From: Bacteroidota bacterium
GTDB taxonomy: Bacteria > Bacteroidota > Bacteroidia > UKL13-3
DNA: 36,752 nt
Direction: 5' to 3'
Assembly (NCBI GenBank): GCA_034439655.1
Contig: JAWXAU010000106.1
Coordinates: 1 to 36,752 of the forward strand
Shown here: piece by piece, positions 8,918-33,527 of the stretch
Numbering within the stretch: position 1 is the stretch's first letter
Layout of the letters: the number at the start of each line of letters is the position of its first letter
Program-made: the position numbers and the translations under genes
The notes under the pieces: model-generated
The model's database searches: none
Told to the model about the DNA's origin: nothing
Seen by the model: the letters and a program-made list of their open reading frames with translations, nothing else

Positions 8918-8982
8918 CGAAGGTGGTTTTCTTTAAAGTTAAAAGGGTTACATAACCTTAGAAATATGTTATATATATCACA
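8918..8982 (-). promoter_or_regulatory. Shared stress-promoter module, copy 1 (PSD-like gene)
   Basis: Read on the - strand: TGTGA box starting at 8982, TATAACA about ten bases on, TGTAACC exactly 21 bases after that, then a TTCG box (variant of TTTG) starting at 8921. First box to TTTG-like box is 61 bases, as in the five other copies. It ends 17 bases before the ATG at 8900. Confidence 0.7.
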
Positions 8983-9226
8983 TATTTAAAGCGGGTAAGA
9001 TTGGCAAAGTGCTCCTATTTTTTGCTCATCCACAGGAGATAAAGAATATTGAAATCAGCCTAGAAATAAAATACTAATTTGTTCTTGCCCGAAAACTCCT
9101 TTTTCTTTCATTACGCTCAAAAAAAAGGTCATTTATAATAATAAACTCTCATGTTTCTTAATTTCGCAAGCCTCGAAAGGGAAGACTATTTTAGTTGAAG
9201 AATAGGTATAATAAACTATTCTGTTG

Positions 9227-24731: not shown

Positions 24732-24796
24732 CAAATATGAATGTAGTACTCAAATCAAGTATTATATAATTCTGTAAATAAGTTACATAATTCACT
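24732..24796 (-). promoter_or_regulatory. Shared stress-promoter module, copy 2 (DUF5670-like gene)
   Basis: On the - strand: AGTGA from 24796, TGTAACT after it, TATAATA 21 bases further, then TTTG from 24735, followed by CAGTATAATAATTCAG. The 61-base spacing equals the other copies, and the start of the transcript region resembles those of CsbD and the His-rich gene. Confidence 0.75.
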
Positions 24797-25232
24797 TATT
24801 GAGATTCAGTAATCGGGGAGATGACATCTGTTCTCCTCATACTAGAAGAAAAGAATAAAATATCAGCAGCACCGAAATCAGTATCAACTTCGCAGCGGGG
24901 AGCCATGATTCTGTGCCGAAATCTTCCTAGGCTGGGTGAGACTGAATTGTAATAACCAAACCTCTTATTAAGGCTTGTAACAACTACTGGCGTTACGATA
25001 TCTATTCCCTATATAAAAATACTGCCGAAATAATTCCGCAAATTCAAATCTTGTTTTAAAGGCTTCTTTAAAAAACCTTGCCGCAAAACTTGATATAGAA
25101 CCTATTTCAACTAAAAATATTTTAAAAGGTTTTTTTTCTTTTACTTATAGATAACACTTCTGAAATTTTTAAACAAATAAATAATTCTATCAAATATATA
25201 TAGCGTTTTCTTTGCTATAACAAAATTTGTTC
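24797..25232. other. Gene-free stretch between the DUF5670 promoter and yceI
   Basis: No convincing gene was found. It contains scattered GC-rich remnants, among them CCTAGGCTGGGTG (24926-24938), which nearly equals CCTAGGCTGAGTG at 9726-9738, and then an A/T-rich part with a T run near 25130-25141. The region after the YceI stop may hold its terminator; nothing stronger can be said. Confidence 0.4.
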
Positions 25233-26288: not shown

Positions 26289-26353
26289 CAAATTTGAGTG
26301 CATATTCAAAATAAACTGTTACACTTTGTTTATAAAATGTTATATATTTCACA
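26289..26353 (-). promoter_or_regulatory. Shared stress-promoter module, copy 3 (CsbD gene)
   Basis: On the - strand: TGTGA from 26353, TATAACA, then TGTAACA 21 bases on, then TTTG from 26292 followed by CAATATAACAATTCAG. This is the best-formed copy, with both TAACA boxes exact. Confidence 0.8.
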
Positions 26354-26364
26354 GATTTAGGAAT

Positions 26365-27164: not shown

Positions 27165-27229
27165 CAAAGGTGCGTATTTATATACTATAGGGTATTACAT
27201 ATATATAATAAAACTTTATATATATCACT
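27165..27229 (-). promoter_or_regulatory. Shared stress-promoter module, copy 4 (lipoprotein gene)
   Basis: On the - strand: AGTGA from 27229, TATAAAG, TGTAATA 21 bases on, and TTTG from 27168 followed by TAGTATAAT. The spacing from the first base of the first box to TTTG is again 61 bases. Confidence 0.75.
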
Positions 27230-27290
27230 TGTTCCATATTTGAAAAAGCAAGTTCTTATTCTAATAAAATTAGAAATTAATGTGTCGCTG

Positions 27291-28409: not shown

Positions 28410-28474
28410 CAAAGGTCTATACAGATACATAATAGCATCTTATATAAGTTTGAAAATATATTACATGAATCACA
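28410..28474 (-). promoter_or_regulatory. Shared stress-promoter module, copy 5 (His-rich gene)
   Basis: On the - strand: TGTGA from 28474, TGTAATA, TATAAGA 21 bases on, TTTG from 28413, then TGGTATAGCAATTCAG. Spacing identical to the other five copies. Confidence 0.72.
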
Positions 28475-28495
28475 TATTTTAAAACACGATTGGTA

Positions 28496-32513: not shown

Positions 32514-32633
32514 GATTTGGCAACTCTGCTTTGCTAGTTTACAGATTTGACAACGCTGCCTTGCTACTGTGTATGCAGACTGTGTAGATTTGACAACTCT
32601 GCCTTGCTACTGCGTATGCAGAGTTGCCAAATC
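32514..32633. repeat. Nested palindromic repeat element, copy 1
   Basis: GATTTGGCAACTCTGC (32514-32529) is an exact inverse of GCAGAGTTGCCAAATC (32618-32633). Inside, two more left arms occur at 32544-32560 and 32587-32603 (GATTTGACAAC..CTGCC), and the last one pairs with the right arm at 15 of 16 bases. The unit spacings are unequal. Likely REP/MITE-like. Confidence 0.85.
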
Positions 32634-32647
32634 TGCATATGTTTATA

Positions 32648-32887
32648 TTATACATATTGCGAGCAGTAATCGTGTACCATCATAAATGTAGCTGCTAATA
32701 CCACATCGGCCGGAATATTGACTTTGTGTGGATGTTCTCTGGGTATCTGCTCAGGATGCTCTTCTGTTTCACCCGGTGGATGATTAATAGGTTGTTGCTT
32801 ATCGGGTGCTGTAGGTTGTTTTTGAACTTCCTTTTCAACTTCAGGCTGTGCTGGCACGGTGGCTTTTTGGGGATCTATATTTTTCAT
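32648..32887 (-). CDS. 79-residue Pro/Glu-rich protein
   Basis: MKNIDPQKATVPAQPEVEKEVQK, then a long Pro/Glu/His-rich middle (PINHPPGETEEHPEQIPREHPHK), and a short hydrophobic C-terminus (VVLAATFMMVHDYCSQYV). I do not recognise the family. The promoter module at 32933-32997 with its TTTG 49 bases before the ATG is the strongest support. The middle is likely unstructured; it might be a soluble stress protein. It is a single gene. Confidence 0.78.
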   Translation of the reverse strand: MKNIDPQKATVPAQPEVEKEVQKQPTAPDKQQPINHPPGETEEHPEQIPREHPHKVNIPADVVLAATFMMVHDYCSQYV

Positions 32888-32932
32888 AATAGGTATGGAT
32901 TTATCTCGATTTTTATGACGGGCTTACTTCTA

Positions 32933-32997
32933 CAAAGGTGAAGGTATACCTGATGGTAATTGTTACACTTATGCACTAAAAAATTGTATATTTCACA
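32933..32997 (-). promoter_or_regulatory. Shared stress-promoter module, copy 6 (Pro-rich gene)
   Basis: On the - strand: TGTGA from 32997, a weak first box (TACAATT), TGTAACA 21 bases on, and TTTG from 32936 followed by TAGAAG. The 61-base spacing is kept though the downstream region differs from the others. Confidence 0.72.
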
Positions 32998-33026
32998 TAT
33001 TTTAACTCATACCATAAGTTTTGTTG

Positions 33027-33154
33027 GATTTGACAACGCTGCCTCGCTGGTGCATTGGCAGAATTGTCAAATCTGCGGGGCTTACCACATCAACCCCTCC
33101 CGACACGGGGGGAAGGGCGTAAACCTTGCATTGCGTATACTGCGTTGTCAAATC
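33027..33154. repeat. Nested palindromic repeat element, copy 2
   Basis: GATTTGACAACGC (33027-33039) is inverted exactly at 33142-33154 (GCGTTGTCAAATC). An inner arm GGCAGAATTGTCAAATC at 33057-33073 pairs with the left arm at 15 of 17 bases. The design repeats copy 1 in mirror order (one left arm, two right arms). Between them lie GC-rich hairpins. Confidence 0.8.
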
Positions 33155-33228
33155 AAATCATCTGCACAGGCTGATTGGGCGTTCACCGCGGCGAATGTTG
33201 GTGAAGAAAATAAAGGTCGTCCCTACAG

Positions 33229-33281
33229 TCCCGATACCCCCGCATCCCGATAATTATCGGGATTAAGCGGGGCTATCGGGA
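33229..33281. repeat. Large three-part palindrome with TCCCGAT arms
   Basis: TCCCGATA (33229-33236) pairs with TATCGGGA (33274-33281), CCCCGC (33238-33243) with GCGGGG (33267-33272), and the centre ATCCCGATAATTATCGGGAT (33244-33263) is a perfect 20-base palindrome. One 3-base bulge separates the arms. It lies in the 639-base gene-free gap between the Pro-rich gene and the response regulator; the rest of the gap has only these repeats. Confidence 0.85.
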
Positions 33282-33312
33282 TATAATTCGGCATTACCAT
33301 TCTAAAAATTAA

Positions 33313-33327
33313 TCCGCCTCAGGCGGA
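33313..33327. repeat. TCCGCCT/AGGCGGA palindrome
   Basis: A perfect 7-bp stem with a one-base loop (C). It shares the TCCGC arm with the hairpin at 5297-5310, so it belongs to the same family of short palindromes. Confidence 0.75.
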
Positions 33328-33399
33328 GAAATATTATAGTTTAAGAATTGGTATAAGAAATGGTATAAGTATGTTAACCTAAGCAGCAGTAGATGTCTC

Positions 33400-33417
33400 T
33401 CCCGCAAGCTTGCGGGA
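33400..33417. repeat. Perfect 18-base palindrome (TCCCGCAAGCTTGCGGGA)
   Basis: Fully symmetric with no loop. Its core GCAAGCTTGC also occurs at 26508-26517. A weaker related palindrome lies around 33503-33517, just downstream of the response regulator stop. Confidence 0.8.
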
Positions 33418-33527
33418 CGACATGACAAAATAATTGAAGCCTCCGCAACGAACGCCCGAATATATCATCTGAACCAAGAAAAATAAAAAATTCTAAATGT
33501 AATCCACCCGCGGCGGATAAAATAATA

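Follow-up and report, generated by a model that had tools for sequence, protein, structure and literature searches.

The palindromic repeats lying between positions 32514 and 33154 of the window, by which we mean the whole stretch of 36,752 nucleotides analysed here, are probably best explained as members of a family of non-coding, REP-like hairpin DNA elements confined to one genus. The copies are dispersed, are constrained to form a hairpin, fall into subfamilies with matched arms, differ in presence and absence between species and occur in places as clusters of truncated units. Set against published families through the descriptions of these, the family is new and apparently an orphan.

The sequence-only reading had described two nested palindromic copies on either side of a Pro-rich gene, each with outer arms, an inner hairpin and an extra arm. 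The palindromes are real: inverted repeats are recovered where they had been placed, far above chance. In copy 1 the outer repeat is at 32514-32529/32618-32633 (16 nt, 100%) and the inner hairpin at 32583-32602/32618-32637 (20 nt, 90%). In copy 2 the inner repeat is at 33027-33043/33057-33073 (17 nt, 88%) and the outer at 33024-33039/33142-33157 (16 nt, 94%), which pairs perfectly over its inner 13 nt (33027-33039 with 33142-33154). As described, mirror order is seen in the extra arms, at 32544 in copy 1 and 33139-33154 in copy 2. Allowing up to three mismatches, the arm pattern matches nine times in the window, compared with 0.90 expected and a maximum of three in 100 shuffles. What did not survive is the copy of about 120 bp as the repeating unit. 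When many copies are read side by side, the unit proves to be the inner hairpin of 46-48 bp, GATTTGACAACTCTGC-N14/16-GCAGAGTTGTCAAATC, with 16-bp arms and an inner part of 14-16 nt that often contains a small second stem. Folded as single-stranded DNA, the full units give z-scores of -7.2 (32587-32633) and -5.4 (33027-33073), and the whole copies 1 and 2 give -4.3 and -3.8.

The outer arms of the nested copies are parts of neighbouring half-units. Copy 1 comprises, all on the plus strand, a truncated unit (32514-32543) with the 5' arm GATTTGGCAACTCTGC and part of the loop but no 3' arm, a degenerate unit (32544-32586) whose 5' arm is intact and whose 3' arm has decayed (seven mismatches in the partner arm), and a full 47-bp hairpin unit (32587-32633), which at 69.5 bits is the top-scoring copy of the genome. 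Copy 2 consists of a full 47-bp unit on the plus strand (33027-33073, 58.0 bits) and a remote minus-strand half-unit (about 33119-33154) in which the arm GATTTGACAACGCAGT and part of the loop are present and the other arm is missing. The Pro-rich ORF (32648-32887, minus strand, 79 aa, no Pfam match) lies between the two hairpin sites. At another locus, L047 (183-340, on G000:C175), three hairpin units stand in tandem at a spacing of 54-56 bp, and in the first two the 3' arm has decayed, as in copy 1 of the window.

Other repeated sequences are found in the vicinity. Short GC-rich palindromes occupy the same intergenic stretch at 33310-33328 (TCCGCCTCAGGCGGA), 33400-33425 (CTCCCGCAAGCTTGCGGGA) and 33500-33520 (CCACCCGCGGCGG). 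The first belongs to a species-specific two-hairpin repeat of about 125 bp, a copy of which covers 33228-33360, 73 bp from the hairpin site. At least 40 near-full-length copies of this repeat, 89-94% identical, are present in the source genome, where 40 of 332 first-look candidates were scored, and none was found in two congeners; some copies look as if they belong to a longer element bounded by ATACC...GGTAT. A separate motif, reading on the minus strand AAATATGTGAtatATaTAACATATTT ... TGTAA and then, after about 35 nt, CACCTTTGnAGTATAAnAAT, occurs in six copies in the window (8942-8988, 24756-24802, 26313-26359, 27189-27235, 28434-28480 and 32957-33003). Its core gives six matches, at five of the six places and on both strands at one of them, compared with 0.55 expected. 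Several copies are just upstream of minus-strand ORFs, one of them the Pro-rich ORF, and the motif looks like a shared promoter or operator, that is, the mark of a local regulon.

The proposal of a genome-wide palindrome family of REP/BIME type is borne out by counts in the source assembly. With up to three mismatches the arm is found 125 times in its 3.5 Mb, compared with seven for the reversed pattern, so that the arms are no peculiarity of this locus. A covariance model of the hairpin, built from 32 of the genome's own copies, gives at least 61 matches representing at least 36 distinct places on 29 contigs, a lower bound since 150 of 1046 candidates were scored. The same model finds 17 places in the congener G001 and seven in the congener G002. 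These three genomes, all of one genus, are the only ones with the hairpin among the 58 of the relatives search and likewise among 64 genomes of the family. It was not found in 84 other genomes, 61 of the same family and 23 of other families of the class, although in the searches over 40 genomes the filters were stricter and weak copies can be missed. With no copy found outside the genus, conservation at this locus in distant relatives, as might be seen for a local regulatory site, does not apply. A strict hairpin pattern run earlier over the 58 genomes matched the source genome only; it was too strict and was replaced by the covariance model. Among named genomes that pattern had one exact match, in a Myxococcales MAG, which we take as chance. 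The hairpin had no match among viral contigs, plasmids or phages, and the open-licence literature yielded no description of the family, the arm-sequence matches there being unrelated by title.

Pairing of the arms was assessed in 58 copies from the three species (33, 7 and 18), more degraded copies being left out. Watson-Crick pairs fill 799 of 928 arm cells (shuffle mean 714, maximum 738 in 1000 shuffles), and in 64 cells both bases have changed (shuffle mean 21.8, maximum 32). At several stem positions one base pair replaces another, and mismatched intermediates are few or absent. Position 5 has T-A in 45 copies and C-G in 13, with no intermediates at all; at position 9, 41 copies have A-T and 12 have G-C, and at position 13, 32 have C-G and 21 have T-A. 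In a control confined to 32 copies of the source genome, the covariation score was reached by none of 500 shuffles and the number of doubly changed cells by one, while two of the five measures, pairs changed on both sides (reached by 238 of 500) and pair types (277 of 500), did not rise above the shuffles. Related copies inflate the pairing counts, which are thus to be read as discrete compensated subfamilies and not as many independent events. One such subfamily, with a TTCG arm (GATTCGWCGACTC), has 30 matches in G001 against three for the control and nine against five in G002, clustered on one contig; in the source genome it is not above the control (four against three). The inverted repeat with its conserved TTTGACAA core might also suggest paired binding sites of a dimeric DNA-binding protein. 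This is scarcely credible, since the arms change together so as to stay complementary to each other and not so as to hold a consensus, and since copies lie alike between divergent, convergent and co-directional genes.

The ends of the hairpin carry no fixed signature. The foot is A at 54 of 74 ends; GTAG is found at 10 and GCAG at 12, giving GYAG at 22 of 74, a weak preference and not a fixed guide, and only one of 37 copies has GYAG at both ends. The tag CGTC is present in none of 33 copies. Integron attC sites have RYYYAAC and GTTRRRY core sites at their outer ends; by inspection the outer ends of the hairpin are GATTTGAC/GTCAAATC, which do not fit these cores, and attC sites were rejected as candidates. 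The alternative of a MITE, here what is left of a DDE transposon whose termini were 16-bp inverted repeats, had also been raised from the sequence and would account for hairpin ends inverted over 16 bp in a dispersed, non-coding repeat. Target duplications of at least 4 bp were sought in 33 copies and seen in two, compared with 1.46 expected from re-paired flanks, which leaves the MITE reading unsupported. The arms vary in step, and the unit of 46-48 bp with its 16-bp arms falls below the 70-300 bp, with terminal inverted repeats of 15-30 bp, of MITEs (size range from the part of PMC3733652 used here). Of the 112 Pfam families in 65 flanking ORFs, none of the 25 commonest is a transposase. A MITE origin is very improbable.

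The genomic context of the copies appears as that of elements without a preferred neighbourhood. With a crude ORF caller, which also keeps spurious ORFs, 26 of 43 scored sites are wholly intergenic, and of the 23 intergenic copies for which a gene was called on each side, six lie between divergent, seven between convergent and 10 between co-directional genes. The copies are thus intergenic without bias towards convergent genes, and their context is random. Pfam assignments for 65 of the 69 ORFs near copies in the source genome are to housekeeping genes; 10 of the 65 carry the T9SS sorting domain Por_Secre_tail, which suggests type 9 secretion in the host. At L061 the TGA stop codon of a MazG ORF sits within a hairpin arm. 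The predicted RNA hairpins are strong, about -25 kcal/mol, and several copies lie 7-20 nt past stop codons, as would suit transcription terminators or other local regulatory RNA hairpins. Against this, TTTT occurs within 12 nt at only 5 of 66 ends, the units were not picked by a terminator scan, copies are as frequent between divergent as between convergent genes, and no Rfam match exceeded the gathering score, two chance miRNA scores being far below it. The units do not fit intrinsic terminators, in which a GC-rich stem is followed by a T-run downstream of genes, and we judge a terminator or regulatory RNA role improbable.

Sites in the source genome were compared with stretches of G001 and G002, the latter represented by about a quarter of its genome plus the hairpin loci. 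At four sites both flanks align to G002. At three of them, L053 (two units), L055 (two units) and L054:3002, the orthologous G002 site has no hairpin, which also counts against a terminator. At the fourth, L057:2019, G002 does have a hairpin, which stands at the same spot, 9-11 nt past the stop codon, yet belongs to the TTCG subfamily. One-sided comparisons add that at L054:1987 G001 has a hairpin of another type and none is seen in G002 (left flank only), that at L061, outside the count of four, none is seen in G002 (only the left flank aligned), and that the G002 hairpin L106 is without a counterpart in the source genome (L070; one flank only). Intergenic divergence is too high for empty sites to be read at base level, which leaves gain and loss indistinguishable. 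L037, L042 and L059 gave short matches of low identity to G002 that were not counted, L058 was dropped because synteny ends ahead of its hairpin, and the site in the window is not comparable, since the glycosyltransferase gene is all that aligns there to G001.

Two sites are common to species, L057/L105 and L054/L110, and they could be old retained sites, which would speak against hopping. At these orthologous sites the hairpins belong to different subfamilies and both arms have changed, so orphan hairpins might instead be rewritten in place, through Y1-independent, hairpin-directed conversion or replacement between copies, instead of or besides hopping. We consider this quite unlikely.

A REP-associated Y1 transposase, the partner anticipated in the sequence-only reading, did not come to light: no PF01797 gene was found in the source genome, while 49 of the 58 genomes of the relatives search have one and the two congeners have four each. 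Seven of these eight congener genes were read, the one left out being in G001. None has the hairpin within 2 kb; in six cases the stretch inspected extended about 2 kb on each side, and for the gene on G002:C5 the nearest hairpin is 8.8 kb off. Y---Q--HH, the signature of subclass 1.2, which is generally without terminal hairpins according to the part of PMC6006769 used here, is seen in five of the seven proteins, and two look TnpA_REP-like (YIHYNP and YVHLNP). On G001:C244 a lone TTCG-type arm close to the Y1 gene was rejected, there being no second arm within the 180 bp inspected. Two congener Y1 loci carry other strong palindromes (L101 2473-2518 and L104 2454-2506), which are unlike the hairpin studied here and are possible REPs of those Y1 genes.

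Some of these observations would fit REPs of the classical kind, mobilised by a resident TnpA_REP that was lost from the assembly. The assembly, 96.8% complete, is split into 205 contigs, and seven of 35 copies lie within 400 bp of contig ends, compared with 1.85 expected, although this enrichment may stem from the abundant 125-bp repeat: many of its copies are within 150 bp of contig ends, so that it probably breaks the assembly. The Y1 genes of the congeners, the weak excess of GYAG, and a hairpin size and dispersal that fit published REPs also favour an active system. Taken with the lack of PF01797 in the source genome and of adjacent hairpins at the seven congener genes, and with the subclass 1.2 signature in five of these and the other palindromes at two, such a system is unlikely.

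Under the preferred reading of a REP-like orphan family, the copies would have spread as single-stranded hairpins, cut and joined in trans by a structure-recognising nuclease. This would most likely be a Y1/HUH (TnpA_REP-like) enzyme, which may since have been lost by the lineage, be missing from the assembly or be too diverged for PF01797. Effects on neighbouring mRNAs, such as 3'-end stability or supplied stop codons, would then be a side effect of the landing place. The family adds an example of hairpin repeats persisting without a detectable partner transposase, in one T9SS-bearing genus, probably of the Bacteroidota. If the absence of the transposase is real, the genus would offer a natural test of a REP-like population and its arm pairing after enzyme loss, and also of another enzyme serving the hairpins.

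Among known systems, the closest comparison is with REPs, described in the parts of PMC2817692, PMC6006769 and PMC3733652 used here as short palindromes of intergenic DNA, marked by a GT[AG]G guide and accompanied by a cognate Y1 gene. Like REP/BIME/REPIN sequences served by RAYTs, the hairpin is an imperfect, mostly intergenic palindrome in many copies, within the range of about 20-65 nt (21-65 nt in the part of PMC6006769 used here), occurs as singlets and clusters, and has subfamilies with compensated stem changes. Unlike them, it has no consistent GT[AG]G guide at the 5' foot and no cognate tnpA_REP flanked by repeats in the source genome, and for this it is filed as an apparently orphan REP-like family; it is also genus-restricted and of low to moderate copy number. 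Its long, near-symmetric form with complementary ends recalls the 'double foot' long REPs of TnpA_Y1 subclass 2.4 in Cyanobacteria and Bacteroidetes, as outlined in PMC6006769, but GYAG is rarely at both ends and no subclass 2.4 gene was recognised among the seven congener Y1 genes. CGTC-tagged REPs, said in the part of PMC3733652 used here to lack a dedicated transposase, resemble it in that respect and differ in their tag. The absence of a conserved terminal tetranucleotide is shared with the atypical hairpins of subclass 2.6 in Bacteroidetes and with untagged families (PMC3733652 and PMC6006769, in part), from which, compared by description only, it differs in not being linked to any Y1 gene. 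Untagged REP-like families are already known from these two sources, and the portion of PMC3733652 used here both expects more of them and notes that REPtrons can disappear by deletion.
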